From the NCBI GenBank assembly GCA_033398695.1, contig CM065811.1:116855501-116919500 (forward strand): a DNA stretch of 64,000 bases. The letters run 5' to 3'. Below the pieces are notes generated by a model, which was not told the DNA's origin, did not search any database, and saw nothing but the letters and a program-made list of their open reading frames with translations. Position numbers and translations under genes: made by a program. Of this stretch, positions 3,890 through 64,000 are shown one piece after another (the first letter of the stretch is position 1; each line of letters opens with the position of its first letter). The stretch is from Orobanche coerulescens. Its lineage: Eukaryota > Streptophyta > Magnoliopsida > Lamiales > Orobanchaceae.

Positions 3890-5040
3890 TGTTGTGTCAA
3901 GATTTAACACCTTCCGACCGGCGATCGCCTCCGAGGCCGAGCGACCGACTTACAGGCCGAGCGACCGAGTCACTGCCGAGCGACCAAGGCAAGCCTGCCG
4001 ATCGGCGACCAGGCGACCGAGCCTTAGCCCAGTGGACATGCTAGACTGGCCAACCGAAGGGCCCAGGGCGAATCCCGGTGCCGAGCGATCGACATCAAGG
4101 CGATCGCCTCTCAGTACTCGGCGACCGACCCTTGGCGATCGACCGTCTCTCGGCACCTGACGACCTACCCATGGCGACCGACCCTTGGCGACCTCCATCC
4201 ACTGGCCGATGACGACCTCCGAAGACCATCCAGGTCGATCACCACCGACGGACATCCAGTCGGCAAAGGCCGAGCCTCAAGACTGGCACCACGTGCAAAG
4301 GCCGAGACAAGATCCGTGAATCCCGGGCCATTGACCAAAGCCTGACAGATTCCCTCCACCAGCCGACAGGCCGCCGAAAGCTTGTCGGTAGGGCCACATG
4401 TTGACTGACTCCGGACACGTGATGGCCCCTTATGGGACCGCCCAGCTGGCGCCAGCCACTGCATTGGACTTTATTCGGACAGCCAGCATCTTCCTTGGAC
4501 TTTAGCCTGACAGCCCAGGAGATCGCCCCATTAAAGTATTGGCCGGCAGACGATCGGAGGAATATTAAAATGGCCGGCAGGCGATCGGCAGCAAAAGGAC
4601 AGGACCCGGCTGTCCCTATATAAGCAAGGCAGCCTGCACTTGTATTTTCGCTGGGCAATCTCACGATTCAAGCACTCAATATAGAAACAATATACAACTC
4701 TTGGCTAACATCCAACTCTTGGCAACAGCTTTCTTTCGGTCTTACTTCTCCCGGCCTTTTCTCCTCGAGCAGATTACCGGCGGGACGAAGAACACCTAGC
4801 TTCGCTCAAGAGCCGGATCAACAGAGTCTTTTTACACTCATTGTATTTAGATTTCTCTAATTAATACTTGTATCCACGAATATTTGTATTAATAACATCT
4901 CGCGAGAGCATTCAAGCCCGGGCCTAACAAACCCGGCAAATCTTGTATTATTTACCTTCTCTCGGAAGTGTTCTCGCATTTTGTTTGTTACTCGATCGTT
5001 CCAGCAATACTATCTCCGGATAATATTTTGGGTAACAACA
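3890..5040 (+). repeat. Element D 5' LTR
   Basis: 1151 bp. The first roughly 300 bp are packed with CGATCG and GCGACCGA words, followed by a TATA box at 4616 and a leader. It aligns with 7291-8430 almost perfectly over the last 850 bp, but poorly over the first 300. Confidence 0.93.
4616..4625 (+). promoter_or_regulatory. TATA box of element D LTR
   Basis: CTATATAAGC, with the dyad-rich U3 upstream. The copy in the 3' LTR is at about 8006. Inferred from motif and position. Confidence 0.7.
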
Positions 5041-5041
5041 A

Positions 5042-6199
5042 TTGGCGCTAGAAGGAGGGCATCAACCCTCGATTTTTTACACCTACCGTCCCGAAGAACA
5101 CTCACTGTTCTCGGGGCAGATATTTGAAGTGACACTCACTGCACTTCAAAAGAAATCCTTCAGAAAACATGTCTTCGCAAGCGTCGAAGAAAGCCGGCCG
5201 CCGGCTGCACTGCCTGTTCCCTGGCCCGAGCCGCAGCCGATGGTGGAAGGCAGCCGCCGCGGTCAAAGACGCTCGATCCCGTCCCGGGACGGCGGACCGA
5301 GCCTCTCGCACGATCAGTTCCGAACCAATGAACAGATCGAAGAGGCCATAGCCGCCCTTCAGGAACGACGGAGTGCTCTCGACGCGCCTCCTGCTGCCGC
5401 CCCCCCGGTCTCTCGCCGGAAGTTCAAGCGGAAGCTTAAGGCACTACTGGCCGAACAAGTGCCAGGAGGCTCTCGCCCGCAAGAAGAGGCGCTCGGCAGC
5501 CGGGGCACGTCCGTCTTCGATCGCCTGGGCAGCGACCCGACCTGGCGACCGGGGCAGTCCGGCCCCAGCTACGAGACGACGGAGTTGGTGTCCGTCACCA
5601 GGAGCTCGGCCTACCCGGCTCCCACGAGGCGATCCAGCCGCCTGGCTCCCGCTCGCAAAATTCCCGAGGTCGGCAGCAGCGGGGTCCGGAGATCGGTACA
5701 CGATCGCCTCGGCCCCCGCTCCCAAAGCCGATCCGCAAGCAGCCGAGCCGCGGCGATCGCCGCAATGCAACGTCGATTGACGACATGAAGGCGCTCCCGC
5801 AATCCGGGCAAGCGCCACGGGACGATCGCCCGCCGAGCGAGCCGCTCGCGATCGACATCGAGCTCGCCCGGTGCGGCACACGATCGCCCCTCCTAAGACA
5901 CCCGTGTACCAAGGGCGATCGGACCCCGTGCACACTGCACAAGTTCAACATCTACATGACCGGTGTGGGGCATCGGACGCGACCAGTGCCGAATGTTCCT
6001 CTCGACACTAGACGACCTCGCCCACCGGTGGTACACCTCATTGCCACCTCGGTCCATAGGCTCCTTTAACGAGTGGCGCACGTCTTCACGGAATACTTCG
6101 CCACCGGGGCCGCTCGGCCAGAAGGTCCCCATCGCATGTGGCGGATCGTGCAAGGAGAACAGGAGTCCGACTCGGACTACATCGGCCAGGTTGACATGA
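5042..6199 (+). pseudogene. Element D gag remnant (Tat/Retand-like)
   Basis: An open stretch of 248 codons (5042-5788) is Pro/Arg/Ser-rich and contains FDRLG-type words twice (VFDRLG, VHDRLG), typical of Tat-lineage gag N termini. A plausible native ATG lies near 5169 in another frame. A second frame (about 5963-6199) carries a capsid-like stretch, FLSTLDDLAHRWYTSLPP, resembling the tryptophan-containing core of Retrotrans_gag. The two are out of frame, so the gene is broken. No zinc knuckle or protease is seen. Confidence 0.6.
5043..5059 (+). other. Primer binding site candidate of element D
   Basis: TGGCGCTAGAAGGAGGG starts 2 bp after the LTR end, the usual place for a tRNA 3'-end complement. 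I cannot name the tRNA with certainty. Confidence 0.65.
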
Positions 6200-7290: not shown

Positions 7291-8430
7291 TGTTGTGTCA
7301 AGATTTAACACCTTCCGACCGGCGATCGCCTCCGAGGCCGAGCGACCGACTTACTGTGCCGAGCGGCCGAGTCACCGCGAGCGACCAAGGCAAGCTCGCC
7401 GATCGGCGACTGTGCGACCGAGCCTTAGCCCATGGACATGCTAGATCAAGCAACCGAAGGGCCCAGGCGAATCCGGTGCCGAGCGATCGACATCAAGGCG
7501 ATCGCCTCTCACTCGGCGACCGACTGGCGATCGACCGTCTCTCGGCACTGACGACCTACCCATGGCGACCGACCCTTGGCGACCTCCATCCACTGGCCGA
7601 TGACGACCTCCGAAGACCATCCAGGTCGATCACCACCGACGGACATCCAGTCGGCAAAGGCCGAGCCTCAAGACTGGCACCACGTGCAAAGGCCGAGACA
7701 AGATCCGCGAATCCCGGGCCATTGACCAAAGCCTGACAGATTCCCTCCACCAGCCGACAGGCCGCCGAAAGCTTGTCGGTAGGGCCACATGTTGACTGAC
7801 TCCGGACACGTGATGGCCCCTTATTGGACCGCCCAGCTGGCGCCAGCCACTGCATTGGACTTTATTCGGACAGCCAGCATCTTCCTTGGACTTTAGCCTG
7901 ACAGCCCAGGAGATCGCCCCATTAAAGTATTGGCCGGCAGACGATCGGCGGAATATTAAAATGGCCGGCAGGCGATCAAAGAAAAAGGACAGGACCCGGC
8001 TGTCCCTATATAAGCAAGGCAGCCTGCACTTGTATTTTCGCTGGGCAATCTCACGATTCAAGCACTCAATATAGAAACAATATACAACTCTTGGCTAACA
8101 TCCAACTCTTGGCAACAGCTTTCTTTCGGTCTTACTTCTCCCGGCCTTTTCTCCTCGAGCAGATTACCGGCGGGACGAAGAACACCTAGCTTCGCTCAAG
8201 AGCCGGATCAACAGAGTCTTTTTACACTCATTGTATTTAGATTTCTCTAATTAATACTTGTATCCACGAATATTTGTATTAATAACATCTCGCGAGAGCA
8301 TTCAAGCCCGGGCCTAACAAACCCGGCAAATCTTGTATTATTTACCTTCTCTCGGAAGTGTTCTCGCATTTTGTTTGTTACTCGATCGTTCCAGCAATAC
8401 TATCTCCGGATAATATTTTGGGTAACAACA
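7291..8430 (+). repeat. Element D 3' LTR
   Basis: 1140 bp and the partner of 3890-5040. Most differences from the 5' LTR are small indels or block substitutions clustered in 7350-7560, with near identity afterwards. Confidence 0.93.
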
Positions 8431-9791
8431 AGGGGAAAGCCCCTGGATTTGTGGTCCACGAGGATGGACTTTTGAGGTTTAAGAATCGATTGTGCGTACC
8501 GACGAATGACGAGTTGAAAAACTCGATTTTGATAGAAGCTCATGCTACCCCTTATTCTGTTCATCCGGGGTCTAGCAAGATGTACAAGGACTTGAAACAA
8601 AATTACTGGTGGAGTAATATGAAGCAAGAAGTCGCAGAATTTGTTTCGAGATGCCTAACCTGTCAACAAGTCAAGATTGAACATCAGCGGCCGGCGGGTA
8701 TGCTGAAACCTCTTCCTATTCCCGAATGGAAGTGGGAAGACATTTCTATGGATTTCATCACGAGCTTACCTATGAGTCGTCGTGGCATGAATACGATCTG
8801 GGTGATCGTGGACCGCTTAACTAAATCAGCTCATTTCCTTGAGATCAAGGAGACGTGGGGTCCCGAGAGACTTGCTCAACTGTTCATCAAAGAGATAGTC
8901 AGACTGCACGGTACTCCTAAAAGTATCGTTTCCGATCGTGACGGACGGTTTGTGTCGCATTTTTGGAAATCAGTTCATCGTGCTATGGGAACCCAGCTTA
9001 ATCTCAGTACCGCTTTTCATCCTCAGTCCGACGGACAATCAGAGAGAACCATTCAGACATTAGAGGACATGTTGAGGGCATGCGTCCTCGATTGGAAAGA
9101 CGATTGGGAAGCCCAACTACCATTGATCGAGTTCACGTATAATAATAGTTGGCATGCTTCGATTAAGATGGCACCTTACGAGGCCTTGTATGGTCGTCGT
9201 TGTCGATCTCCGTTGTGTTGGGACGACTTATCAGAATCATTGGGCACCGAGCCCGATATGCTTATAGCCGCCCGTGAGAAGGTAACTTTGATCAGGATTT
9301 GTTTGTTGACCGCTCAGAGTCGACAGAAATCATATGCAGATAACCGTCGTCGACCATTAGAGTTCGAGGCAGGTGACCACGTGTTGGTCAAGGTATCCCC
9401 GAGTCGTTGTATCTTTCGTTTTGGGAAGAGGGGTAAGTTGAGTCCGATATTTATTGGACCGTTTGAGATTTTGGATCGAGTAGGCGAGTTAGCTTACCGA
9501 TTGGCTTTACCTCCGGCGTTGAGCCGAATTCATAATGTGTTTCATGTCTCTCAGTTGCGGAAGTATGTTGCCGACCCGAGTCACATACTTCAGTTCGATG
9601 AAATCGAGATCGCCGACGATCATTCATATGAGGAGCGTCCTATACGAATTTTACAGCGGCGAATCAAACAGTTGAGGAATAAGACGATTCCTTTGGTTAA
9701 AATTCAGTGGTCTAGACACGGAGTCGAAGAGGCTACTTGGGAAACCGAGGATAGTATGCGGGAGAGTTATCCCGAGTTGTTTGACCCTTAG
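8431..9791 (+). pseudogene. Element A integrase with chromodomain-like C terminus
   Basis: It resumes A's pol frame after element D and stays open to the TAG/TAA-type stop at 9789. The order is an H2C2 zinc-binding region (HATPYSVHPG...CLTCQQVK), the catalytic core with Asp codons at 8751 and 8934 and Glu at 9042 (D-x60-D, D-x35-E), then a C-terminal module (VKIQWSRHGVEEATWE) matching the chromodomain-like tail of Tekay chromoviruses. Integrase inserts the cDNA, and the chromodomain of this group is thought to steer insertion to particular chromatin. This part has no stop, so the integrase half is better preserved than gag and RT, but it is cut off from its promoter by element D. Confidence 0.93.
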
Positions 9792-9806: not shown

Positions 9807-9810
9807 TCTT

Positions 9811-9822: not shown

Positions 9823-10053
9823 TGTATGTAATACCCGGTTGTAATTTAGTTATTATCATTCAGTATTTATCATTCAGTAATTGTCATTCAGTAATTTCAC
9901 TCATTAATGATCATTTGTCACTCATATTCAATCATGGTATTCATCATTCAGAGTAATTGTATCGTGTATCAATCGTCAGTCATCACTAATCTAATTGGAG
10001 TTTCGTGCCGTGTTTATCATCGTCGTCATTTTCATTGTGGACTGTGTGTGAGG

Positions 10054-10624
10054 AAGTAGCGCACGCTACGTACTCTTTTTAGCGCACGCTAATTGAGTAT
10101 AGGTAGCGCACGCTACCACTCAGCATTAGCGCACGCTAATGTTACCCTGGCTGCGATCCGGAAGGTACCGACTGCAGGTGAGTTGTTAGTAGCGCACGCT
10201 ACGAGTGGTAAGTAGCGCGCGCTAGTGGGTTGTAGTAGCGCACGCTAATAATTGCTGTAGCGCGCGCTAAGGACGGATCAGGTTGAGTCCAGTGGCTACT
10301 GGACTGCACTGGGTTAATTCATAGCGCACGCTATGAGTTGTTTTTAGCGTACGCAATCGATATTATAGCGCACGCTAAATATTGGTTGTAGCGCACGCTA
10401 CCGAGGTCAGATCAGAGGACAGACGGTTTCTGGATTCCAGTACTGGGCATCAAATAATTCGTTAGCGCACGCTAACTATGGGTATTAACGCACGCTAATA
10501 GTATGGTTGTAGCGCACGCTACAAAAAGGTACGTAGCGCGCGCTACCGATTTCGGACAGTGGGTACTGGAATACCCAAAAATTACCTGTTAGCGCACGCT
10601 ACGCACAAGGGCTAGCGCACGCTA
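10054..10624 (+). repeat. TAGCG-CA-CGCTA dyad array in element A LTR
   Basis: About 18 copies of TAGCGCACGCTA or its variants (CGCG, CGTA centres) lie in 570 bp at irregular spacing, separated by unrelated sequence. Arms TAGCG and CGCTA are complementary. In many copies the outer bases pair as well, giving dyads of up to 18 bp. The array stops a few bases before the TATA box. Confidence 0.95.
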
Positions 10625-10635
10625 ACCTGGAGTGA

Positions 10636-10643
10636 CTATAAAT
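10636..10643 (+). promoter_or_regulatory. TATA box of element A LTR
   Basis: CTATAAAT directly after the dyad array, followed by a pyrimidine-rich leader. Inferred from motif and position. Confidence 0.7.
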
Positions 10644-12299
10644 TGGACAGTGTAGCCCAGATTTCGTCATTTATCTTTCCTTCTCATTTTCTCTTCGGTT
10701 TTGGGCGATTTTGGGCGATTTGGAGAGTACTTTTCGAGGTATAATCATCAATCATCATCTTCAAGCTCACCATTCGGATTAATCATCATTTCATCATCTC
10801 CTTAACATCAAATCAAAGGTATTAATCTCTTGGATCTAGAATTTCGGATTTTTGGGTTTTTCCTTCCGATTTCTTCGTGTAAGCTTGGATTATTGTCGGA
10901 ATACATTAGATATGGATTATCTACCTTGGATAAATGTATTCCTACGGATTTAATGGCTATTTTCGGAATTATTTCAAGAACCCTTAGGGTTGACTTCGGT
11001 TAATTTGGGGATTTTCCGATTATTGTTGTCGTAAACTTGAATTGTGGATTTCTATGAGATTATTGATGTCATTGATAATGTTTTGCTGGTTTGAATCAAT
11101 CTTTTGGAGTTGGTTCGATAATTTGGATTTGGTTTTAACCAACGGGAAGGATATTCTCAACGTTTTCGTTAGAGTTCATCTACGAGTTCGGATATTGTTG
11201 TATCGACGTTTGAGTCGGTTATGATCGTATTTGATTCGTGTATTGATCGGTTGTTGGTAATTATTGTTATTCAAGGTTGTTCGAGCGACCGACATTTCAT
11301 TTAGGACGTTGTTCGTGGAAGGACATTGTCATCGGTATTGTGTAAGTTAACTCTTACTCGGTTAAAAGGATACTCATTCCTTTTGTTGTTTATTGCTCAT
11401 AATCATAATTCATTCATCATAATATTAATCATAATGAGACTTGTAATTGTCGAATAATCATTTCATTCACGAGGAGCGACGGTTCCAAATCATTTCATTG
11501 GGTTATCAATCAAGTCACTATTATTTTCATCTCGGTGAGTCATCTTGGCCTTGTCGAATTATTATTCATTGGTATTCATTGTGGTCATTCTCGTTCATAT
11601 GACCTTATGGGTTCATATTGCGTGGCCGGGTGTGGCTGTGTGGAATTTTTAGTCGGGCACACGATGGTCATGTTTTGGGTTCACCGATACATTGGACCGT
11701 GCACACGGTAACGCTTACCTCCGTGAGACTAATTAGGTACAAGGACGGGTGTGTCCGGTCATTCGTCTTGTACACTTGCACAGAACATTACGGGCGTACT
11801 ATGATACTCCTCTTGGCGTAATTCATAACTAAGGATATTTCATAACTTGGTTTAATCATGATTATGTATTTTCAACCCTTGAGGATTGTTGTTCTGTAGA
11901 CTTGGCCCGTTGGGGATTTTGTTTTCGTGTCACGGCAAGGCAAAGGCACGGAAGAGCATCTTGACGGCGAGGAGTCCTGTGATACTAGTAGGGGCCCCAG
12001 TCATTCCGTTCATTTCATCATATTTCACTATTTGATTATTCCGTCATTTGTATTTTCCGCTGCAAATTCCGTTTGAGATGTTTAATTGTTCAGGGTGGTG
12101 TATTTTATCTCCATATAAAATATACTAGTATTCGGTTTAGTCCTGGTGTGTTGTACTTAAACTCCTCATCGGAGTACTTGGTAATATAATGTGGTTCGGT
12201 ACTACAATTATATTATTTAATTCATCATTTTCATTTGCCTGGTGGGTCCCAGTCGGGGATTCACGGCACTGTAATATCCGCCTAGTTTGGGGTGTTACA

Positions 12300-15020: not shown

Positions 15021-16220
15021 AGATAGCGAATGGGTGAGTCCAGTACATGTTGTACCAAAAAAAAGTGGAATTACTGTAGTTGACAATGACAAAGGAGAAA
15101 TTATTCCTACCAGAGTTACTACAGGTTGGCGAATCTGTATTGACTATCACAAACTTAATGCAGCAACCAAAAAAGACCATTTCCCCTACCATTTATTGAT
15201 CAAATGTTAGATAAACTTTCTGGTCATAAATTCTATTGCTTTCTTGATGGTTTATTAGGATACTATTTGCACCTTGGGATTAATCAAAAACAACCTTTAC
15301 TTGTCCATTCAGAACATTTGCTTTTAGGAAAATGCCTTTCGGGCATTGCAATGCACCTGGAACTTTCCAAAGGTGCATGCTTTTTAATTTTTCCGACATG
15401 GTAGAAGATTTTATTGAGGTATTTATGGATGATTTTTCAGTTTTTGGATCATCATTTTCTGATTGCCTCAATAAATTATCTAAAGTCCTACAAAGATGTA
15501 TAGAAAGTAATTTAACCTTAAGCTGGGAAAAAAGCCATTTCATGGTGGTTAGTGGAATTGTCTTAGGACATATAGTCTCTAGTGAAGGAATTAAGGTTGA
15601 TAAAGCTAAAATTGATGTAATTGAAAAATTACCTCCTCCAACCAATATAAAGGTATTAGAAGTTTTCTTGGGCATGCCTATTTTTACAGAAGATTTATAA
15701 AAGATTTTTCAAAAATAAGCCAACCTTTGTGTGAATTACTTACTAAGGATGCCCCTTTTATCTTTGATGAAAGATGTTTAACTGCTTTTAATACCCTGAA
15801 AGAAAAGTTAATATCATCTCCTGTAGTTATTTCACCAGACTGGACCTTACCATTTGAACTAATGTGTGATGCTTCAAACTATGCGGTCGGGGCAGTTCTC
15901 GGTTAAAAAGTTGATAAAGTATATCGTGTACTCTACTATGCTAGTTTTACCCTCAATGAGGCACAAGTAAATTACATGACCACGGAAAAAGAGTTGTTAG
16001 CTATAGTTTTTGCCCTCGACAAATTCCGATCTTATATCGTAGGGTCAAAACTAATAGTGCAGAGTGATCATGCAGCATTAAAATATTTACTAAAAAAGCC
16101 ACAAGCTAAACCAAGACTAATTAGATGGATTTTAATGTTGCAAGAATTTGACGTAGAAATCAAGGATAGAAAAGGGAGCGAAAATGTGGTCGCTGACCAT
16201 TTGTCACGACTCATAATTAA
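15019..16220 (+). pseudogene. Element F reverse transcriptase-RNase H, frameshifted
   Basis: RT homology passes through three frames, with shifts near 15010, 15185, 15290 and 15680. Recognisable pieces are WVSPVHVVPKK, WRICIDY, LDKLSGHKFYCFLDG, MPFGHCNAPGTFQRCM and the catalytic FMDD at 15422-15433. RNase H follows (CDASNYAVGAVLG, then a stop near 15904, [45 protein letters not shown]). FMDD is the usual Athila form of the YxDD box. Confidence 0.88.
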
Positions 16221-18767: not shown

Positions 18768-19426
18768 ATGGAGTCATCAGCATCATCTTCCACAAAAAGA
18801 TTTAACTCCATCTGCATTTTTGGCGGAGCTAGTCATGGGAATGAGGCTTGCTTTACTGAAGCAGCCCATAACTTGGGTCGTACCCTAGGAGAAAAATGCA
18901 TTCACGTAGTTTACGGAGGAGGAAGTCTATGATTAATGAGACGCGCTGTTGCTTCTGCCTATATGGAAGGAGTAAAAGTGATGGGAATCATCCCAAAACC
19001 TCTGGCTGAAAGTAAAATCACCGGGGCAACCATTGGAGATGAGTTTAGAGCTGTGAATATGCAATACCACATAACTCACATGATAAATAATGCCGACGCC
19101 TTTATCACCCTTCCAGGTGGTTTTGGCACTCTTGAAGAACTATTTCATGTGGTTACTAGAGCCCAAGTAAATATTCATAAAAAACCATACGGTCTGCTAA
19201 ATGTCAATGGTTTCTTTGATGGTTTACTATTTTTCATCAACTACTCTTTTGAAAAAGGTTTATTTCTGAGCGTGCTAAACGAATCATAGTCGTTGCAACA
19301 ACACCAGAAGAGCTGATCAAAAAACTGATTGAATTTGTTCCTGAACCAGATCAAGCTCTAGCTAATATTATTTGGATGGAAGATTTCAATAGGGTCGGGA
19401 TAGTTTGGTGTTTTGAAAAAAAATGA
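18768..19426 (+). pseudogene. LOG: LOG-type cytokinin riboside monophosphate phosphoribohydrolase, intronless pseudogene
   Basis: Full-length homology (about 219 codons; family members are about 210-230). LOG enzymes release active cytokinin bases from riboside 5'-monophosphates in the cytosol. Visible motifs are CIFGGASHGNE near the N terminus, VVYGGGSL around residue 54, MGIIPKPL, and the signature LPGGFGTLEELF starting near residue 115. Two lesions are seen: TGA at 18930 directly after YGGGSL, where Gly is usual, and a one-base shift near 19258, after which KRIIVVATTPEELIKKLIEF continues in another frame to TGA 19424. Plant LOG genes normally have several introns; none is present, so this copy passed through RNA. 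It sits inside element F downstream of the Cys-rich ORF. Confidence 0.85.
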
Positions 19427-19632
19427 GGAACCGAAGTTCAAAATTTGTTATGTAATTCGGGTTCGATTCCTGACTTTTTTTCTCCAGGAACTGAATTTGT
19501 AAGAACCGGAGTAATTTTACCAAAAAACCGAAAAAAACCGAACTGAAATTTACAGTTCAAAATTTTAGTAAATAACCGAAAAACCCGAAATTTTTCCTGT
19601 TACTTCAGTTAATTTGATTATGTTGATATGAT
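19427..19632 (+). other. AT-rich tail of element F before LTR G
   Basis: No coding signal. It contains repeated AACCGAA words (about 19430-19590) and a pair of AGTTCAAAAT words. I see no clear polypurine tract or LTR start here. Confidence 0.5.
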
Positions 19633-19894
19633 TGTAATATCCGGAATTTCTACTACTATTGTCTAAGGTTATTTTATCCGAGTTATGTTGTACATCGTAG
19701 AATCTGTACAGTATGGATAAAATAAATGAAGGACTGAGACATCTGTATTTATATAATTATAGATATCGTGTATCAGAAGTATCGTATGAGAATATTATTA
19801 GATTCAGTATATGTATTCAGTATGTGTGTATGTGCTTTCGGTATGTCGAGACAGGCAGGAACAGTTGGAAATGCCTGAGTATAGAGCCCTTAAT

Positions 19895-20115
19895 GCACGC
19901 TAAGCTTAAGGACTTACGTACGCTAAGTTGCTAGTGTTACGTACGTTAAGGCTAAGGCATTACGTACGTAACAAGAGGAATCAGACATATGGTCGGCATG
20001 TGGGGCCCTGTGTCGGTAGCTTTCGGCGGAGAACGTGCACGGGTGAGTCAATGCTGAGTTAGCGTACGCGACGATGAGTGTATAACGTACGCTAACTGGA
20101 CATTTACTGTAGCAA
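19895..20115 (+). repeat. ACGTACG dyad array in LTR G, first part
   Basis: Copies such as TTACGTACGCTAAG, TTACGTACGTTAAG, TTACGTACGTAA and TAACGTACGCTAA. TTACGTACGTAA is a perfect 12-bp palindrome. The array continues on the other side of element B at 29815-29960. Confidence 0.9.
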
Positions 20116-20285
20116 GTCAACGTACATATTATGTGTAATATCCAGATTTATTACTGTGTATTTTACCTGTATTCGAACCCTGTATTATTCGGAATTGTGA
20201 TCTTGATGATTGGAGTATGATATTTCTTACATTGATATCTTTGTACATAAGTATAACAACATGCAAAATTTCTCATGCAAACTGG

Positions 20286-20490
20286 TGATAGCGCACGCTA
20301 AGAATGTAGCTTAACGCGCGCTATCGAGCTACTACTAGCGCACGCTACGTATGTAGGAGTTGCGTGCGGTAAGTACTCAATTATTGAGCTGGGCGACTAG
20401 CACATGCGCCAGCCGGGACATGGGTCCGGATAAGATTCCCACGGACGAACCTGGATAGTTTTGAAGTCAACTCTTATTAGCGTGCGCTAA
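20286..20490 (+). repeat. Dyad array 1 of element B 5' LTR
   Basis: About five copies of TAGCGCACGCTA, TTAACGCGCGCTA, TTAGCGTGCGCTAA and degenerate forms upstream of the TATA box. The 3' LTR has one additional copy. Confidence 0.9.
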
Positions 20491-20509
20491 TCTGCTTTGT
20501 GCAGAAAGT

Positions 20510-20517
20510 TTATATAT
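20510..20517 (+). promoter_or_regulatory. TATA box of element B LTR
   Basis: A TTATATATGG run 25-30 bp after the last dyad of array 1, followed by a pyrimidine-rich leader. Inferred. Confidence 0.65.
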
Positions 20518-43120: not shown

Positions 43121-43130
43121 CTATAAATAA
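43121..43130 (+). promoter_or_regulatory. TATA box of H1 LTR
   Basis: CTATAAATAA, identical in the 3' LTR (50981-50990). H2 has CTATAAATAG at 55849. Confidence 0.75.
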
Positions 43131-47372: not shown

Positions 47373-47901
47373 GTATGTCCAAATCTCTAATCTCAAATTG
47401 TTCTATGAATTTAAATGTGAAGTTGTGTTAGGCATTTGATGGTTGAATATGTTTATTTCCTTCAAAAGTTCTATGATGGTTAAGTGGAGGACATGATGGT
47501 TTTGATCGTTTTCATGATTATTTTGGATTACGAATGAATTGAATATGTCGTTTTTGATGGTGAATGATTCGTGTTTTTGTTCTTGGAGATTTAATCGAGC
47601 TATTGCCATACTTGTTCTTCAAGTGAACTCTTGCCCTTTAAGTGTTTGATGAAATGTCTAAATGAAAAATTTTCTTTGTTAAGGCAATATTTTGAATCTA
47701 TGTGCAACGTATTCATTCTGGAATTACAGCAACCCCAACCCGTACGTCTATTTTAAACGTTATGGTTCAATTTCATTTTTCTCTCACGGATGTGCTATCT
47801 CGTTAAAATTCTGATTTACGGCTGGATATCCTTAGTCGAGTGATGATTATTCTCGTTATTGTTTGAGTAAGTAAACTCCAGTGTTTAAATTTTTTTTTCA
47901 G
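47373..47901 (+). other. Putative intron before ORF2 of H1
   Basis: Donor AAG|GTATGT at 47372/47373 and acceptor TTTTTTTTCAG| at 47901, 8 bp before the ORF2 ATG. H2 has the same donor and acceptor (60062-60586, 525 bp). The body is AT-rich, as in plant introns. This suggests ORF2 is made from a spliced mRNA. Confidence 0.7.
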
Positions 47902-47909
47902 GACTCACT

Positions 47910-49269
47910 ATGGCTATGACTAAAAAGCTGAGCAAGAGGGCCAGGACTCAGTCATCCCCCACTCGAGGGGAAACCTCTCGTAGTCGCGCCGAGTCGGAGG
48001 GGCACCAGTTTTCTGACCCGGAGATCCACAAAATCTTCAACGAGAAGATTCGGCCGCGACCTCTTATCCCGGAGAGGGGATTTACTCCACCCCCCCAAGA
48101 CGGGGAACTGCTTACCATGATAGATGAGATGGGGTGGGCCCGTTTTGCTGCACCCCCCGAGCCAGTGGTGATCTCGATAGTGCAGGAGTTCTATGCCAGC
48201 GCGTTATTGAAGCATATCCGGGCAGGCCAGATGTTGCAGCAGTCAGACACTCGAACTCAGGTCGATGTCCGAGGTATTACGGTTGATTATTCCACAGCTG
48301 CTATTCGGAGGTTATTTGGGCTTCCGGTGGTAGATGAGACGGCTTATGACCGAGTTATGGCTAGCCTCACGAAGGAGGCTCTGCTCGAGACTATTACGCA
48401 GCCCGACTCCAACTGGGAGCGGCGCGCACCGGGTTCTTCCACTTTCCACTTCAAGAGCTCACGCCTCAATCGGCTCGGGCGTGCCTGACTATATTTTATT
48501 TGCGCTCGTATAGACCCCACATCTCAGATCCGCACTGTTTTTCTCTCCCGCGCCCGGACACTATATGCTATCACATCGGGCTGCGATTCGATGTGGCCCC
48601 TCTCTTGGTCCGATCTATATTCCAGTGCATTCAGGGAGGGGCCAAGACAGGGTTGAAGCACCCCTCTCTTATCTGCACTCTGTGCCGGCAGTCGGGGCTG
48701 ACGTGGTCAGACGATGAGCCGATGCTAGCTCCCCAGGCCCCGATCGACCACCGCATCATCTCACATTTTGACCAGTGGGGAGGAGCGCCGGCGCACGCTC
48801 AGGGGAGAGGATTTCTACTGGATGAGGCCCACGAGGGGTCCCCCGAGCCTCTTTTGCTGACACAGGGGCAGGCAGATGCCGGCCCGCCGCCCGACAGAGA
48901 GAGATTGCAGGCGATGTTCAACGGGCTGAGGGAGGATATGAGAAGAGAGAGAGAGGAGACGAGGAGAGAGAGAGAGAGGATATGAGAGAGGATATGAGGA
49001 GATAGAGGGAGAGTATTCTGGCTGCCATGAGAGAGGAGCAGCGGACGGAGAGGGAGAGCTTCATTACTGCCGTTAGGGGTGAGATGCGAGAGCAAGCCCG
49101 CCGGGCCAACCGATGAGAGGCGAGGCGTCTAGCAGCGAGGGATGCCTACCACCAGGAGCACCTAGATGCATGGACAGTCCATATCATGCACCCAGACGGG
49201 CCATTTATTGCACCTGCTCGGCCAGCCACACCACCCTCCTCACCGGATGATGCCGGCACCAGCTCGTGA
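47910..49269 (+). pseudogene. H1 ORF2, plant-transposon-type protein, broken
   Basis: ATG 47910. The first 192 codons are open and resemble the 'putative plant transposon protein' domain found in Athila-type and other plant elements (FAAPPEPVVISIVQEFYASAL, VDVRGITVDYSTAAIRRLFGLP). Lesions relative to H2 are TGA at 48486 (TGG in H2), a one-base loss near 48570, and stops within the coiled coil near 48984 and 49113. The frame carrying SIFQCIQGGAKTGLKHP...CRQSGLTW is intact at 48500-48985. The C terminus is a charged RE/ER-rich coiled coil encoded by GA repeats and ends GTSS at 49269. Function unknown; it holds the env-like position but shows no membrane segment. Confidence 0.75.
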
Positions 49270-50540: not shown

Positions 50541-51870
50541 TGTTAGGCGTATTTTTATACGCTTATTTAGCATTATTTAGTGTTAGTTTGGCGTGTAAAA
50601 TTGCATAAATGAGCTTTTAATGTCTTATTCTCGCATGTTTGACAGAAGATTGGAGTCTGGAAGCTAAAACGAGGCGAAACGGGCGAAAACGACGAATTTT
50701 GGCCGTGGGCCGCGGCACAAGGCAAGTGGGCTGCGGCACAGGAAGAGGACCAGCGGGCACCAGAGTAGACTGTACTCTGTGCCGCGGCACAGTCCAGGTG
50801 AGCCGCGGCCCAGACGTAATACCCAGCGCCCAGGTTTTAAATTACACGCCATGTGCCGCGGCACAGATTAAGTGAGCCGCGGCACACAAGGCGGTTTTGG
50901 TGTGCTCCGCGCGGATTTGGGCCGTTTTGAAGCCAGTTCTCGACCTACTCACACGGACGCGATTTAGAAACTGTTGAGAGCTATAAATAAGGGTTTAAGA
51001 CCCTAATTAATCATCTTGGAAATCTTGGAATCTTGGGAGGCTTGGAAAAAGGAGGATCACAGAAGATTATCGCAGAAGAGAGATCAAGTGCAGAGGACGG
51101 AAGCCAGAAGAACGTAGGGATCCGAGCTCTTCATCTGCGTTTGATTTTCATGCTTTTAATTATTAATTTTGTATTTTCATTATTTAGCATGTCAAGCTAA
51201 AACCCTAATCTAGGATTTTGATGAAACCTTTGTTTTGACGGATTTGCTTGAGATTATCTCTTTAATTCCCTTTTTGTTGACTTTTCCCAATTGTGTTTAA
51301 TGCTTTCAATTATCTGGCCAATAGTTGTATTGTTTTAATCATTCAATTCGAATCGGGAGAGGAGAATTGGTGAGGAACTATTGGTGAGGACCGTTTTATC
51401 TTGTGAGATAGGAATATACTCATAGGAACTACGTGGCCTTTTGGAGATTTTAAGCTTTTTGCATATTGACGAATCAATTCACCTAGGGATAGAGTGCGTT
51501 ATTCGCCTTTAGAAAAATCTATTGACCTCGGGAGAGGCGGTAGAGTATATTAGCAATCTTCGCCTTCAATAAATTGGGAAAATCATTAACTTCAGATAAT
51601 CGAGAGTAAATTCGGATAAACCGAGGTGGATTCAGAATCCTAGACTTATTCATCATTTGATTCTCTTTCTTCAAGCTATCGTTTTACTGTCTAGTCTTTT
51701 ATTAATTCTTTTAGTAATTAATTGCAAAACCAAAGTTCGATTGTTCAAATAAAACTAGAATACATAATAATCGGTAGTTAGTGATTCAGTCCTCGTGGGA
51801 ACGATACTCACTCATCACTTTATTAATTGTATACGATAGCGTGCACTTGCGTTAAGGAAAAATCGCAACA
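50541..51870 (+). repeat. H1 3' LTR
   Basis: 1330 bp with no indel relative to the 5' LTR and about 24 substitutions. One of them repairs or breaks a dyad (GCCACGGCAC in the 5' LTR, GCCGCGGCAC here), and another is CCGCGG to CTGCGG. Confidence 0.96.
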
Positions 51871-52440
51871 CCCGACCATGTCAGGTGACACGGCCGTGTC
51901 AAACTCTTTCGGATAGTCATATCTCACTGGTCGTCCAACCCGACCGTGTCAGGCCACACGGTCGAGTCCTACTCGTCCAGAAATGCCAGAACGCCTGCCC
52001 AGGCAACCCGGATGTGTTCCAGGACACGGTCGAGTCCTACTCGACCAAGATTCCGTCCGCACATGCGCCGCGACCATGTCAAGCGACACGGCCCGTGTCC
52101 AACCGGCAGTTTTCTTTCTTTTTATACACTTTTGTGTTTTGTTTGTCTTTTCTTTTCTTTCTTTACTCATTTTAGGAATTGTCTTTCCCCTAAATTGTGA
52201 TTTTGTGTTCCCCTTTGTATTTTATTTTGATTTGTTTTGATTATTCAAAGATTTTGTAATCTTTGAATTGTTTTCTTTAATTATGGTAGGGAGACTTGGG
52301 TTTTTCTATAAGTAGGCTTGAATAATCTTGTAAGAGGGATTGAATGTTTAAATAAGAATACACTTTGTATCTCTATCCTTGTTGAATGATTTTCATCAAA
52401 CTCTTGATTTTTATTCGACGCGTTTTTTAGTATTAATCCG
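51871..52440 (+). other. LTR-like host sequence right of H1 with GACACGGCCGTGTC dyads
   Basis: Continues 42680 after the CCCGA duplication. It contains GACACGGCCGTGTC (51889-51902), GACCGTGTCAGGCCACACGGTCG and further ACACGG/CCGTGT words to about 52100. A pyrimidine-rich run and a TATA-like CTATAAGTAGG (52306-52316) follow. The layout matches U3-TATA-leader of an LTR. I could not fix the end of this LTR. Confidence 0.6.
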
Positions 52441-55409: not shown

Positions 55410-56734
55410 TGTTAGGCGTATTTTTATACGCTTATTTATCATTATTTTGTATTATTTTGGAGAGTGAATTTGATAAAATGAGCCTTTAACGCCTTAATTT
55501 TGTATGTTTGTCAGGAAATTGAAGTCCGGAAGCTAAAACGAGGCAAAACGGGTGAAAACGGCATATTTTGGCTATGAGCCGCGGCACAAGGAAGCAGGGC
55601 CGCGGCACAGGAAGACACCCAGCCGAGTGCAGAGTAAACTGTACTCTGTGCCGCGGCACAGCCCAGGTGAGCCGCGTCACAGAAGAAATTAAGGACGCCC
55701 AGGCATCCAGCTGAAGGCTCTGTGCCGCGGCACAGATTTAGTGCTCCGCGGCACACTTGGCGGTTTTTGTTTGTCCGCGCGGATTTGGGCCGTTTCGAAG
55801 CCAGTTTTCGACCGACTGATACGGACGCGTTTTGGATGATGTGCTGAGCTATAAATAGGGTTTAAGACCCTAATTAATTATCTTTGGATCTTTTATCTTT
55901 TGGAGATTAAGCTTGGAGACGGCAGAAGAAGAGGGAAGCAGAAGACTTCAAGGGCAGAAGGTGGAAGCCGAAGGACGGAGGAATCCGAGCTTCATCTGCG
56001 ATTGATTTTTATGCTTTCATTCATTTATTTTGTATTTTCAATTATTAGTATGTCAGGCTAAAGCCCTAATCTAGGGTTTTGATGAAACCTATGTTTTGAC
56101 GAATTGCTTGAGATTATCCAATTAGTTACCTTTTTGTTGAGTTTTCCCAATTGTGTTTAATGCTTGCAATTATCTGGCCAATAGTTGTCTTGATTTAATC
56201 ATTCAATTCGAATCGGGAGAGGAAAATTGGTGAGGAACTATTGGTGAGGACCGTTTTATTCTGTGAGATAGGAATATACTCATAGGAACTACGTGGCCTT
56301 TTGGAGATTTTATGCTTTTCTCCTATTGACGAATTAATTCACCTAGGGATAGAGTGCGTTATTCGCCTTTAGACAAATCTATTGACCTCGGGATAGGCGG
56401 TAGAATATATTAGCAATCTCTGCCTTCAATAAATTGGGAAAATTATTTATTACGGATAATCGAGAGTAAATTCGGATAAACCGAGGTGGATTCAGAATCC
56501 TAGACTTATTGATCATTTGATTTCCCTTTATTCAGGCTATCGTTTTCTACTGTTTAGTCTTTTAGTAATTCTTTTAGTTATTAATTGCAAAACCCAAATT
56601 CGATTGTTCAAATAAAACTGGAATACATAAAGATCGGTAGTTAGAGATTCATTCCTCGTGGGAACGATACTCTACTTATCACTTTATTACTTGTAAACGA
56701 TAACGTGCACTTGCGTGTAAGAAATATCGCAACA
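55410..56734 (+). repeat. H2 5' LTR
   Basis: Starts TGTTAG and GCGTAT-TTTT-ATACGC like H1. It has six GCCGCGGCAC-type dyads (about 55576-55757) and a TATA box at 55849. Confidence 0.95.
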
Positions 56735-59513: not shown

Positions 59514-59691
59514 TTCTTAGTTGTAGATTTTTTTGCGTTTCTTTATTTTTCTTGCGTTCTTGATTTTTATTTTTCTTCATTTTTGTGCTTCAATTCGCTT
59601 CTGCCTCTCGCTTTTAACGTGATCTTCTCAAAATTCTGTGCAGGAAAGTCCCAGGGGAGAAACTGAAGCCTGAGCCGCGGCACAAGTATTG

Positions 59692-59900
59692 TAAGCCGCG
59701 GCACACATAAATCGAAGGAGATGAGCTAAACCCACTGTACCTTGTGCCGCGGCACGGCATAAATGAGCCACGGCACACTTGAGCACTGAGCCGCGACACA
59801 CGAAATCTGTGCCGCGGCACACGACAAAACGAACGAACAGCCGAGAAGGAATTGTACCCGGTGCCGCGGCTCACTTGAGCTGTGCCGCGGCACACCATGT
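59692..59900 (+). repeat. GCCGCGGCAC dyad array between gag-protease and ORF2 of H2
   Basis: Eight copies as in H1, some with single changes (GCCACGGCAC, GCCGCGACAC, GCCGCGGCTC). The last two copies are the most similar to H1. Confidence 0.92.
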
Positions 59901-60061: not shown

Positions 60062-60586
60062 GTATGTTCCAATATCTAATCTCTACTTGTTTATGAATTT
60101 AAATTTGAAGTCGTTTATGCTTTGGATGGATTGAACTTGTTTATTTTCCTTCAAAATTTCTAGGATGGTTTAGGGGATAACATAGTAGTTTTAATCGAAT
60201 TTTCATTGTTAGTTTGGAATATGAATGAGTTGAGTGTGTTGTTTTGATGATAAATGAATTGTGTTTCTGTTCTTGGGGGTTGAATCGAGCTATAGCCATG
60301 TTTATTCTTCAAGTAAAGTCGTGCCCTTAAGGTGTTTGATAAATTGTCTAAGTGAAAAATTTTCTTTGTTAAAGCAATCTTTTGAATCTTTGTGCAACGT
60401 GTTCGTTCTGAATTTACAGCAAGCCCAACCCTTACATCCAGTTTAAACGTTTAAGTCCAATTTCATTCTTCTCTCACGAATATGCTATTTTGCTAAATTC
60501 TGGATTTCTGGCTGGACATCTTTAGCCGAGTGTAGATCATTGTTATTATTGGTTGCGTAAATAAACCCTGGTGTTTTATTTTTCAG
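60062..60586 (+). other. Putative intron before ORF2 of H2
   Basis: Donor CAAG|GTATGT and acceptor TTATTTTTCAG| conserved with H1; 525 bp against 529 bp. The upstream in-frame ATG at 60571 lies inside this intron, so 60595 is the likelier start. Confidence 0.7.
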
Positions 60587-60594
60587 GACTGACT

Positions 60595-61948
60595 ATGGCG
60601 AGGACAAAGAAGCTGAGCAAGAGAGCTAGGACCCAGTCATCCCCCACTGGAGGGGAGACCTCTCGTAGTCGGGCCGAGTCAGAGGGGCACCAGTTTTCGG
60701 ACCCTGAAATTCACAAGATCTTCAATGAGAAGATTCGGCCACGACCGCTTATTCCGGAGAGGGGATTTACTCCAGCCCCTCAGGACGGGGAATTGCTGAC
60801 CATGATTGATGAGATGGGGTGGGCCAGATTTGCTGCACCCCCCGAGCCAGCGGTTATCTCGATTGTGCAGGAGTTCTACGCCAGTGCACTACTGAAGCAC
60901 ATTCGGGCAGGCCATACGTTGCCATCATTAGAGTCTCGGACTCAGGTTGATGTCCGAGGTGTGACAGTTGATTTCTCCACTACTGCTATTCGGAGGTTGT
61001 TTGGGCTTCCGGTGGTAGATGAGTCGGCCTATGACCGAGTGATGACTAGCCTCACGAAGGAGGCCCTGCTCGAGACTATTGCACAGCCCGATTCCGACTG
61101 GGAGCAGCGCGCACAGGGTTCTTCCACTTTCCACTTCAAGAGCTCACGCCTCAGCCGGCTCCGGCGTGCCTGGCTTTATTTTATCTGCGCACGCATTGAC
61201 CCCACCTCCCAGATCCGGACTGTCTTTCTCTCCCGCGCCCGGACACTTTATGCTATCACTTCCGGGCTGCATTTCGATGTGGCCCCCATCCTGGTCCGAT
61301 CTATCTTCCAGTGTATCCAGGGGGGGCCAAGACGGGATTGAAGCACCCCTCTCTCATCTGTGCTTTGTGCCGGCAGTCGGGGCTGACGTGGTCAGACGAC
61401 GAGCCGATGCTTGCCCCCCAGGCCCCGATCGACCACCGCATCATATCACACTTTGACCAGTGGGGAGGAGCGCCGGCGCACGCTCGGGGGAGAGGATTTC
61501 TGCTAGAGGAGGCCCACGAGGGATCCCCCGAGCCTCTTTTGCTGACACATGGAGATGCCGGCCCGCCGCCCGACAGAGAGAGGTTGCAGGAGATGTTTGA
61601 TGGGCTGAGGGAGGATCTGAGGAGAGAGAGAGAGGAGCTGAGAGAGGAGACGAGGAGAGAGAGAGAGATGAAATGAGGAGAGAGAGGGAGAGTTTGTTGG
61701 CTGCCATACGAGAGGAGCAGCGGACGGAGTGAGAGAGCGTTATTGCTGCCGTCAGAGCTGAGATGCGAGAGCAGGCCCGCCGGGCCAACCGACGAGAGGC
61801 GAGGCGTCTGGCAGCGAGGGACGCTTATCATCAGGAGCACCTTGCCGCATGGACGGCCCATATCATGCATCCCGACGGGCCATTTATTGCTCCAGCCCGG
61901 CCATCCACACCACCTTCCTCACCGGATGATGCCGGCACCAGCTCGTGA
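60595..61948 (+). pseudogene. H2 ORF2, plant-transposon-type protein, one frameshift
   Basis: ATG 60595. Open through the plant-transposon-like domain and further than H1 (the WLYFICARIDPTSQIRTVFL segment is intact, with TGG where H1 has TGA). One base is missing in the G run near 61322, shifting frame at QCIQGG; the continuation is open at 61324-61676 (TGLKHPSLICALCRQSGLTW). Further stops fall in the ER/RE coiled coil near 61674 and 61730. The end GTSS (61948) matches H1. H1 and H2 are broken at different places, so the family ancestor had an intact gene. Confidence 0.78.
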
Positions 61949-63225
61949 GAGGACTGGAGGGGAGTACTTGACCTTTTACTTTTATTGCATATCATATTTT
62001 GTCCATTGAGGTCAATGTACGTCCTAAGTTTGGGGGGGGCTCTACTTTCAGTTGCTACATTCTTTGCTGTACTTTATTTTGTTGCACTTTTCATTACTTT
62101 GCGTTATTTTTTTTCGATAGCCTTGCTTGTCTTAATTTTTCTCTATTCGTGAATTTTTTTCGTGCTTCTATTTGTGTAATACTGATGTTACGACACTGTT
62201 TTTCTCTCTGAAGAAACGGTCGAGTTTTATTCGAGTTGTAGTCAGTAATTTCTGTTTCTGCTTAGTATTCATTTAGGTCCGAAATTTTTTCGTGATTGTA
62301 GAGGTCTTGGCAGATAAGAGAGGATACATACTTGTTTTAAATCACCGTTGATACGTTTGGTTACATTTTTCGGTTAGTTAGTCGTCCAGTTACATTAGTC
62401 GTGTTGGCACTTAGATTGAGTTTAGAGTCGGTCAGTTTTTCCGAAAAGTTGAGATAATGTTGTTCTATGAAGGGAAGTCTAGTAACCGGGGGCATTCGCA
62501 TGACCCGTTGTTTACTCTCGCGTAAAACGACGACCCTGATCAGACTAGTGATTTAGATATTTCACATGTGCCAATGATAGAGAGCCTAGTAACCGGGGGT
62601 ATTCGCGTGACTCGTTGTTTACTCTCGCGTAAAAAGGCGACCTTGATTCGGACATGCGGAAATTATATATTCGAGTTGTTTCTCCGCTGTAGACGGGAAC
62701 TTGGTAACTAAAAGCATCCATGTGCCCCATGAGTGTCTTTTACGTCAAATGGTTTCCAAATACATGAGAATGGAAGCTCCACCCTAGGATTATCCCAATG
62801 AAACATCCCGAGATCCTAACCTAGTGGTCAACTCGAATCAAATTCTTGAGCAAATATATAAGGGAATACTGTCCGAGGATTATTTTTATGAAACTCGTGA
62901 AAATTTTGCCATTAGACTGAGGAACGGGGCGAACTAGAATGTTTATTTTAACCTTTCATATTGACGGTCAATTTGATTCACGTTTTGTTAATCTTTGAGC
63001 TGGATTTTCTTCATGAACGAGTGATTAGGACTTAACTTGATTACTTTGCGGAATCATTATTCTGAGTGCAGCTCGCTATTATGACACTCGTATTATTTAG
63101 AGAGAATTATAGGATAGTATTGATTAGGTTGAACACTACGAGTCGCACGATGATTCACGACATTCTTTTATTGAATTTAATTCTTTTTGCTTGAGGACAA
63201 GCAAAGGCTTAAGTTTGGGGGTATT
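61949..63225 (+). other. H2 long 3' region
   Basis: Keeps the first purine tract (62025-62039), the repeats near 62465-62760, the hairpin TTTGCTTGAGGACAAGCAAA (63186-63205) and the final tract TAAGTTTGGGGG before the LTR. No coding signal. Confidence 0.75.
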
Positions 63226-64000
63226 TGTTAGGCGTATTTTTATACGCTTATTTATCATTATTTTGTATTATTTTGGAGAGTGAATTTGATAAAATGAGCC
63301 TTTAACGCCTTAATTTTGTATGTTTGTCAGGAAATTGAAGTCCGGAAGCTAAAACGAGGCGAAACGGGCGAAAACGGCATATTTTGGCTATGAGCCGCGG
63401 CACAAGGAAGCAGGGCCGCGGCACAGGAAGACACCCAGCCGAGCGCAGAGTAAACTGTACTCTGTGCCGCGGCACAGCCCAGGTGAGCCGCGGCACAGAA
63501 GAAATTAAGGACGCCCAGGCATCCAGCTGAAGGCTCTGTGCCGCGGCACAGATTTAGTGCGCCGCGGCTTTGCTTGCGGTTTTGTTTGTCCGCGGATTTG
63601 GCCGCTTTGGCTTGATTTTCGGCCACCGACTGATACGGACGCGTTTTGGAGGATGTGTTGAGCTATAAATATGGTTTAATACCCTAATTAATTATCTTTG
63701 GATCTTTTATCTTGTGGAGCTTAAGCTTGGAGACGGCAGAAGAAGAGGGAAGTAGAAGACTTCAAGGGCAGAAGGCGGAAGCCGAAGGACGGAGGAATCC
63801 GAGCTTCATCTGCGTTTGATTTTTATGCTTTCATTCATTTATTTTGTATTTTCAATTATTAGTATGTCAGGCTAAAGCCCTAATCTAGGGTTTTGATGAA
63901 ACCTATGTTTTGACGAATTGCTTGAGATTATCCAATTAATTACCTTTTTGTTGAGTTTTCCCAATTGTGTTTAATGCTTGCAATTATCTGGCCAATAGTT
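63226..64000 (+). repeat. H2 3' LTR, truncated by window end
   Basis: First 775 bp. Nearly identical to the 5' LTR except for a dense cluster of differences at about 63558-63625, where the last dyad and the following bases are changed. Confidence 0.94.

Follow-up and report, generated by a model that had tools for sequence, protein, structure and literature searches.

What are arrays of short GC-rich palindromes doing ahead of the TATA-like boxes of unrelated long terminal repeat (LTR) retrotransposons? The question is raised by a 64,000-bp stretch of Orobanche coerulescens DNA (contig CM065811.1, positions 116,855,501 to 116,919,500; the window), which by self-comparison, Pfam scans and reading of LTR ends consists mostly of LTR retrotransposons nested in one another. 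An earlier reading of the window from its letters (the sequence-only reading) had proposed that unrelated LTR lineages share one architecture here: self-complementary words (dyads) arrayed between the LTR start and a TATA-like box. In the present analysis, of one window of one genome, GC-rich dyad enrichment upstream of the TATA-like box proved for the most part real: it is present in elements A, B, C, G, H1/H2 and F and weak in D. The dyads also stand at a fixed pitch across unrelated linkers, a feature that the sequence-only reading had missed. The arrays probably (at a rough 60%) function by cooperative binding of dimeric proteins.

Dyad arrays and the elements that carry them

The elements concerned are:

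Element A: 3' LTR 9827-12299; chromovirus-type, split by D.
Element B: LTRs 20134-22491 and 27431-29814, plus strand; inserted in G.
Element C: 5' LTR 37633-39988 and 3' LTR 30388-32739, minus strand; inserted in G.
G: solo LTR in pieces 19640-20133, 29815-30387 and 39989-42365, plus strand; target-site duplication ATGAT by eye; hosts B and C.
H1: LTRs 42681-44010 and 50541-51870, plus strand; inserted in F.
H2: LTR 55410-56734 and a second from 63226, cut by the window end; plus strand.
F: LTR hosting H1; without lineage assignment.
D: LTRs 3890-5041 and 7291-8431; inserted in A.

Dyads were defined as 12-mers with at least five of six complementary pairs and at least four G/C, and their numbers were compared with dinucleotide shuffles (200 per stretch, 40 for stretches longer than 2.5 kb). 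Summed by hand over 13 U3 stretches, upstream of the TATA-like boxes, there are 112 dyads vs 30.0 expected; taking a single LTR from each element leaves 8 stretches, with 70 vs 18.7. In A (19 vs 3.9), B5 (7 vs 1.5), C3 (12 vs 1.9), C5 (17 vs 2.1) and one H1 LTR (7 vs 1.9) none of the 200 shuffles reached the observed number, and few did in the other H1 LTR (6 vs 1.9; 2/200), the H2 LTRs (6 vs 1.8, 1/200; 6 vs 2.0, 5/200), F (7 vs 1.8; 1/200), B3 (5 vs 1.5; 5/200) and D3 (8 vs 3.8; 7/200). The excess was thus matched by at most 7/200 shuffles in 11 of the 13 stretches, the exceptions being G (6 vs 2.4; 12/200) and D5 (6 vs 3.5; 23/200).

Controls were flat: eight LTR stretches downstream of the TATA-like box (B5 minus its second array) hold 26 dyads vs 26.1 expected, with the highest values in B5 (8 vs 4.3; 16/200) and D5 (3 vs 1.1; 18/200), and seven internal or other stretches (H minus its internal arrays) hold 102 vs 118.8. 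The comparison with shuffles that the sequence-only reading had suggested therefore comes out in favour of its claim, and arrays are not equally common outside U3, but they do occur there: in the B LTR at 21330-21580 (6 vs 1.9) and in the interiors of H1 (9 vs 1.8) and H2 (6 vs 1.4), with 0/200 shuffles in each, although these windows were cut after the arrays had been seen and their counts describe rather than test. Likewise, the proposed placement between LTR start and TATA-like box holds for A, B, C, G, H1, H2 and F, while the B LTR has an extra array after the box and H1 and H2 have extra arrays in their interiors. The arrays and the TATA-like box of A are:

A 3' LTR U3 array: 10056-10625, plus strand; 18 TAGCG-NN-CGCTA dyads in clusters of 4, 4, 4, 4 and 2 at 21-24 bp, 56-74 bp cluster to cluster.
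A TATA-like box: 10637-10642, plus strand; chosen by eye, 18.5 bp past the last dyad centre.
B 5' LTR U3 array: 20288-20490, plus strand; 5 dyads, TATA-like box at 20511; B3 counterpart 27585-27811, TATA-like box at 27832.
B second array: 21342-21559, plus strand; 8 dyads in two fours at 23-24 bp with 64 bp between, some 830 bp past the TATA-like box and still inside the LTR; B3 counterpart 28665-28882.
C 3' LTR U3 array: 32201-32590, minus strand; 13 dyad-like sites forming runs with a 23-24 bp step, TATA-like box at 32176-32185.
C 5' LTR U3 array: 39447-39836, minus strand; 12 dyad-like sites.
G U3 array, left part: 19890-20133, plus strand; B is inserted in the array.
G U3 array, right part: 29815-29965, plus strand; TATA-like box at about 29980.
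H1 5' LTR U3 array: 42847-43025, plus strand; 6 dyads, TATA-like box at about 43122; 3' LTR counterpart 50707-50885.
H2 5' LTR U3 array: 55576-55754, plus strand; same gaps as H1, TATA-like box at 55850; 3' LTR counterpart 63392-63570.
H1 internal array: 46987-47206, plus strand; 8 dyads.
H2 internal array: 59672-59893, plus strand; 8 dyads.
F array: 51876-52091, plus strand; CGGYCG-type dyads paired at 18 bp, with a new pair every 62-69 bp, remainder on the left within 42535-42680, TATA-like box at about 52123.
D U3: 3915-4190, plus strand; repeated GGCGACCGAC and some CGATCG dyads, weak excess, irregular spacing.

How many independent cases these represent depends on lineage. A and B encode RVP_2, reverse transcriptase (RT), RNase H, integrase zinc-binding and SH3_Tf2-1 domains in Ty3/gypsy order (Pfam), and the chromodomain of A is a sub-threshold Pfam match only. 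The primer-site word GGTATCAGAGC, which we take to be a tRNA-Met primer site, adjoins the LTR of B and C. G, a solo LTR, is grouped with A, B and C by LTR similarity and core. ‘Tekay’ is the label given to these four by the sequence-only reading without an RT tree, and the four Tekay-type LTRs are one lineage at most. H1 and H2 (together H), about 86% alike across 8.7 kb, carry Retrotrans_gag and Asp_protease_2 domains (Pfam of their open reading frames, ORFs); H is presumably Ty3/gypsy, going by its Retrotrans_gag domain, and we take its primer-site word TGGCGCCGTTGCCGGGGA to be Athila-like. Among the matches listed for the H1 gag, the best is from Orobanche hederae (79%). Pfam of the ORFs tested revealed no RT in either H interior, and tblastn with 120 proteins found with the RT of A gave at best E 0.003 in H1 (30%, within the gag region) and 0.020 in H2; H therefore looks non-autonomous. 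Judged on gag, pol and primer site, Tekay-type and H belong to different lineages, in line with the claim of one architecture in unrelated lineages; on the other hand the four Tekay-type LTRs count once, F has no assignment and D is weak, leaving as independent cases A-B-C-G, H and perhaps F.

D was rejected as a full member of the set, its dyad excess being weak and its gaps irregular. The CGATCG-centred words reported for it are present in some dyads, but its commonest word is the asymmetric GGCGACCGAC; inverted 8-mer pairs number 55 and 51 vs 14.5 and 14.4 in shuffled sequence, and direct pairs 93 and 55 vs 8.2 and 7.3. No Pfam domain was found in the two ORFs tested from its interior.

Cores, pitch and conservation of the dyads

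The dyads of A, B, C and G all fit a single degenerate word, TWRCG-NN-CGYWA, which at the threshold used for the centre counts has 48 matches outside the arrays (plus strand, 60,009 bp). Families differ in the two central bases (CA in 14/18 dyads of A, TA in 10/10 of C3 and 7/8 of G, mixed in B) and in the purine/pyrimidine (R/Y) choice. The core of H is CCGCGG, with six sites per LTR scoring 9-10 of 10, and that of F is CGGCCG, the only one here with CGG-CCG order. Most of what had been listed by eye was accurate: the roughly 18 copies in A (18 found), the GTGC, GTAC and CGCG centres of B, the ACGTACGT types of C and G, the GTGCCGCGGCAC-type sites of H1 and H2, the F palindrome and the CpG inside every consensus core. 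Overstated, in contrast, were the different cores ascribed to the related B, C and G, which are variants of one word, and the motif turnover said to outpace that of the surroundings, since A, B, C and G share this word and the reverse is seen within H. As a separate observation, spacers between A clusters (10150-10590) carry a second dyad type by eye (CCAGTACTGG, GTCCAGT...ACTGGAC).

Pitch was measured as start-to-start distance against random placement, with the 22-24 bp range picked after the gaps had been seen. Gaps of 22-24 bp make up 12/17 in A, 3/4 in B5, 6/7 in the second B array, 8/12 in C3, 7/11 in C5 and 7/12 in G, where random placement predicts 0.2-1.4 (P 0.0002-0.0004 for each array), and runs are often of four (4, 4, 4, 4, 2 in A; 4, 4 in the second B array). 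In H the gaps are 21, 51, 21, 53 and 21 bp in all four LTRs, and 21, 50, 21, 23, 21, 51, 21 (H1) and 21, 51, 21, 23, 21, 52, 21 (H2) in the internal arrays. For the 20-22 bp gaps of H, P is 0.0016-0.0042. H1 and H2 have a common origin, as perhaps do the LTR and internal arrays (partial similarity), so these are not independent cases. In F the two dyads of a pair stand 18 bp apart and successive pairs are separated by 44-51 bp, save one 70-bp step at the left end. No report of a fixed pitch in such arrays was found in the literature searched, which is not proof that none exists.

Linkers are no more alike than shuffled sequence in any of five arrays (A, B5, B second array, C3, G; P 0.10-0.33), while core identity is 0.72-0.95. 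In A the linkers reach 0.38 vs 0.36 shuffled and the cores 0.95, in agreement with the earlier statement that the copies are separated by unrelated sequence. With linkers at chance identity and gaps constant, length has been kept in A, B, C and G and letters have not. Tandem Repeats Finder (TRF) detects a 23-24 bp period, among the dyad arrays, in A only. One 24-bp unit of B3 is missing from B5, so changes by whole units do occur.

Selection on self-complementary sites, as proposed by the sequence-only reading, could be tested in one family, H, and there the dyads are protected between H1 and H2 relative to linkers. Within the U3 array 6/72 dyad positions differ vs 38-43/118 others (P 1.3e-5 to 1.5e-4 in four pairwise LTR comparisons), and over the whole U3 6/72 vs 81-95 of 377-381 (P 0.0011-0.0089); the internal array gives 4/96 vs 42/132 (P 7.7e-8) and the whole aligned internal stretch 4/96 vs 62/262 (P 5.3e-6). 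An element should start out with two identical LTRs when it inserts, and between the LTRs of one insertion no dyad protection was seen among the few changes present (H1 2/72 vs 5/293; H2 4/72 vs 7/291). In the LTR pairs of B, C, H1, H2 (part) and D, where D was marked by its asymmetric word GGCGACCGAC, CpGs changed in 25/113 cases at marked sites vs 57/305 elsewhere (P 0.49) and non-CpG positions in 17/507 vs 160/6604 (P 0.18). Dyad CpGs thus decay after insertion about as fast as the other CpGs of the LTR, and other positions change at 2-3%. On the simplest account the dyads would be of use during the active life of the element and decay later.

The internal arrays of H are followed by these features:

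H1 TTATAA: 47237-47242, plus strand; 37.5 bp past the last internal dyad centre, the same distance as in H2.
H1 putative leader intron: 47373-47901, plus strand; AAG/GTATGT ... T9-CAG, ahead of ORF2, read by eye.
H1 ORF2: 47889-48488 (frame end), plus strand; ATG at 47910; Transposase_32 (PF20167) at E 2e-11, 44.6 bits vs a cut-off of 45.
H2 ORF2: 60565-61341, plus strand; Transposase_32 at E 1.6e-23.

The internal array, the TTATAA and the distance between them are kept in both copies. H2 has the same 5' splice-like AAGGTATGT as H1; the acceptor-like T9-CAG lies just 5' of the ORF2 ATG in H1, and in H2 a T-run and CAG occur near 60580. ORF2 has no Pfam family besides Transposase_32 at E 0.05. 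The sole protein-database homologue returned for the H2 ORF2 is from Orobanche minor (53%), in a search that sees proteins of similar length sharing short words. Together, array, TTATAA, splice-like signals and ORF2 make a candidate internal promoter.

Proposed dimeric binding and its alternatives

We suggest that the arrays act as promoter-proximal enhancers in which each dyad is a site for a dimer of a sequence-specific protein. Contact between neighbouring dimers would explain why the pitch is nearly constant (22-24 bp for A, B, C and G, 21 bp for H, 18 bp for F); the linker sequence could be arbitrary and the array would end near the TATA-like box. Once bound, the array would increase LTR transcription, and the second H array, which has a TATA-like box to itself, would drive a spliced ORF2 mRNA. 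Since the core differs by lineage, the binding proteins or their preferences would differ as well, host transcription factors being the likeliest candidates. Dimeric protein binding fits best because the pitch is fixed, the linkers are random and the arrays stop before the TATA-like box. In keeping with an enhancer made of dimer sites, spacing is constrained and, in H, sites are more conserved than linkers. A dimeric transcription factor was among the options listed by the sequence-only reading; pitch, linkers and TATA-proximal placement favour it, although the binder itself we infer from them.

Several observations weigh against this interpretation. The TATA-like boxes were chosen by eye, and the distance from the last dyad centre to the box is 49.5 bp in F and 101.5-102.5 bp in the H LTRs, unlike A (18.5), B (27.5), C3 (22.5) and G (about 20.5, by hand); the second B array comes after the presumed TATA box. 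There is no common helical phase among pitches of 18, 21 and 23 bp, and a single helical-phase rule for every family was rejected as the pitches differ. The linker comparison was confined to A, B5, the second B array, C3 and G. Selection was tested on the single pair H1-H2, with few post-insertion changes, and dyads were marked there by a consensus match in either copy, which favours them somewhat. Lastly, related elements of other plants (described below) show no significant excess of GC-rich dyads in their LTR parts, nor was the array architecture met there.

VANDALs, which are DNA transposons, supply the model for an alternative that we consider unlikely, in which the arrays would be an anti-silencing platform, bound by a protein of the element or a relative (in H perhaps that of ORF2) that removes DNA methylation. 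According to PMC5735166 and PMC10398659, the VANC motifs of VANDALs (quoted in the former as YAGTATTAY, AGTTGTCC and AGTTGTAC) have an element-encoded binder, shown by chromatin immunoprecipitation sequencing (ChIP-seq) and electrophoretic mobility shift assay (EMSA); like the dyads they are short repeats in the non-coding DNA of transposable elements (TEs), with a sequence that varies among related TEs. H has an array ahead of ORF2 as well as in the LTR, and the dyads are rich in CpG and have been kept between H1 and H2, all of which would suit such a platform. However, the quoted VANC motifs are not palindromes (PMC5735166) whereas the dyads are, ORF2 matches Transposase_32 and no other Pfam family, the interior ORFs of B of at least 150 aa are gag-pol pieces and one antisense frame only, and dyad CpGs decay after insertion like any others. 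That the host instead recognises the arrays to start methylation, and that elements cannot lose them, seems to us very unlikely: a purely harmful site should vanish rather than be conserved, so a second, useful role would be needed. CpG observed/expected does exceed 1 in 12/13 U3 stretches, yet the post-TATA stretches of A (1.19) and G (1.21) also exceed it and the H1 internal array does not (0.85); the changes at CpGs within LTR pairs, dyad and other alike, are as expected of methylated CpGs.

A function at the RNA level, with array hairpins in genomic or antisense RNA serving packaging, dimerisation or as a source of small RNAs, is in our view quite improbable. On both strands the predicted fold of each of the ten dyad arrays is more stable than that of any of 60 shuffles (z -3.3 to -11.3), which is true of none of four post-TATA controls (A, B5, C3, H1), and D does so on the antisense strand only; in maize, small RNAs cluster on palindrome groups (PMC10760457, PMC5311732). 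Folding of this kind is, however, expected of any palindrome array, the CA centre of 14/18 A dyads breaks sense-strand pairing, hairpins need no fixed pitch with random linkers, and the H internal array lies outside the U3 end of the RNA. Covariation between arms was tested at 10 offsets in four families (40 tests) and pooled. No family shows it inside the core at P 0.05; the pooled families do (offsets 1, 3 and 7; Fisher P 0.016 for R/Y), but pooling mixes families of differing consensus and this excess was not used. In A (10056-10625) arms covary weakly just outside the core, at offsets 6-8 (P 0.017, 0.0055 and 0.04). The RNA-RNA contacts suggested by the sequence-only reading are accordingly not favoured. 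We would give no better odds to a mutational by-product, in which slippage copies or deletes units and template switching perfects palindromes that have no function: the single 24-bp unit by which B3 and B5 differ and the TRF period of A speak for it, but linkers at chance identity between cores that are alike, protection of the dyads between H1 and H2, and TATA-proximal placement are not accounted for.

If dimeric binding is taken further, it is conceivable, though we doubt it, that unrelated lineages of one genome converged on one regulatory grammar, with clusters of two or four sites, a lineage-specific pitch (18, 21 or 23 bp) and often about 50-64 bp between clusters, forming a movable promoter module used in the LTR and before a second gene. 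Convergence of this kind would suggest that a single class of oligomerising proteins, host or element-encoded, has been exploited repeatedly. The control regions of plant LTR retrotransposons are difficult to analyse, since LTR sequences diverge too quickly for alignment; a grammar of dyad, pitch, cluster size and TATA could be searched alignment-free in any genome and would mark promoters of the families using it.

Known systems, outside loci and other features of the window

The closest published layout is that of the Sireviruses (Ty1/copia). According to Bousios et al. 2010 (PMC2829016) their RM boxes are many dyad-symmetric palindromes in the first half of the LTR, in CpG islands and shortly before the TATA box; these are called Sirevirus-specific among the Ty1/copia elements compared, and extra copies precede the interior env gene, where an internal promoter was proposed and not conclusively identified. 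The arrays of A, B, C, H1, H2 and F before a TATA-like box are alike in this, as is G by pitch (12/200 shuffles for its dyad excess), and D weakly so. The elements here are, however, not copia: A and B have the Ty3/gypsy pol order, and H has Retrotrans_gag and no RT found. The CGG-CCG signature of Sireviruses is lacking from A-B-C-G (TWRCG-NN-CGYWA) and H (CCGCGG) and present in F, and the order is not found in every Sirevirus, Tnd-1 being an exception (PMC2829016). F was not adopted as a Sirevirus on the strength of its CGGCCG core, as no coding part was found. The Sirevirus internal copies precede env, and the H internal array, with its conserved TTATAA, precedes a Transposase_32 ORF; H is a concrete candidate for the type of internal promoter proposed for env-bearing Sireviruses (PMC2829016). 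A term search of the main text of that paper showed no statement on inter-copy distance. The layout is thus already published for Sireviruses, and what is new here is its occurrence in non-copia lineages, the pitch and the candidate internal promoter. Palindrome clusters of maize Sirevirus LTRs are small-RNA hot spots (Bousios et al. 2016, as cited in PMC10760457 and PMC5311732); they resemble the present arrays in being LTR cis-region arrays with strong predicted folding and differ in lineage and core.

Contigs from outside the window were scanned for relatives and for similar patterns. The genome contig scan gave 16 loci, five of them (L018-L022) at 58-62% identity. These five look like plant-like chromovirus pieces in assemblies of Streptomyces, Mycobacterium, Geminicoccus, Solirubrobacter and Robertmurraya, likely contamination; L020 and L021 have long near-identical stretches by eye despite coming from two species' assemblies and look like one family. 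Palindromes were scanned in L018-L026 and L032; L019, L020 and L021, elements of other plants with LTR parts present, served as the outside comparison. GC-rich dyads number 4 vs 1.7 in the L019 U3, its end set by eye (19/200 shuffles), 0 vs 1.2 in its downstream part (200/200), 5 vs 2.6 in the L020 3' stretch, which includes about 100 bp of coding end and has no TATA set (23/200), 3 vs 1.9 in the L020 5' part (60/200) and 6 vs 3.7 in the L021 5' LTR part (32/200). Dyads of any composition are in excess in the L020 3' stretch (38 vs 16.5; 0/200) and 5' part (9 vs 4.7; 10/200), and the observed number is reached by 64/200 shuffles in the L019 U3 and 32/200 in L021.

Scans of viral contigs for encoded relatives returned none. 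Pattern matches in 17 viral contigs (L001-L017) were set aside as chance, and internal repeats in 7/17 (68-80%, about 100-430 bp) were not taken for LTR pairs. Operator pairs of temperate phages such as lambda are dimer sites about 23-24 bp apart, bound cooperatively beside a promoter, and they resemble the arrays here in pitch, an analogy of mechanism and not homology. Four IMG/VR contigs (L034-L037) have a TAGCGNNCGCTA pair 23-25 bp apart, in a scan that demanded a spacing of 21-25 bp; in L034 (7127-7162) the pair lies by eye between and beside promoter-like hexamers, in an operator-like arrangement.

Five nested insertions are seen in the window (D in A, B and C in G, H1 in F, and H2 in another LTR), and two of them fall within another LTR's dyad array: B in G (20133/29815) and H1 in F (42680/51871). 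Palindromes are described as weakly preferred for insertion, and LTRs as not commonly targets, in PMC6911290. At 15025-16210 there are remnants of a further Ty3/gypsy-type RT and RNase H, and at 18769-19430 a broken copy of a LOG-type (cytokinin-activating) gene, read by eye. A block of about 150 bp in the post-TATA LTR is 91-93% alike between B (21812-21962, 29135-29285) and G (41197-41344), the only B-G LTR similarity listed in the self-comparison, and at the location of this block related words occur in C within a 72-bp tandem repeat.

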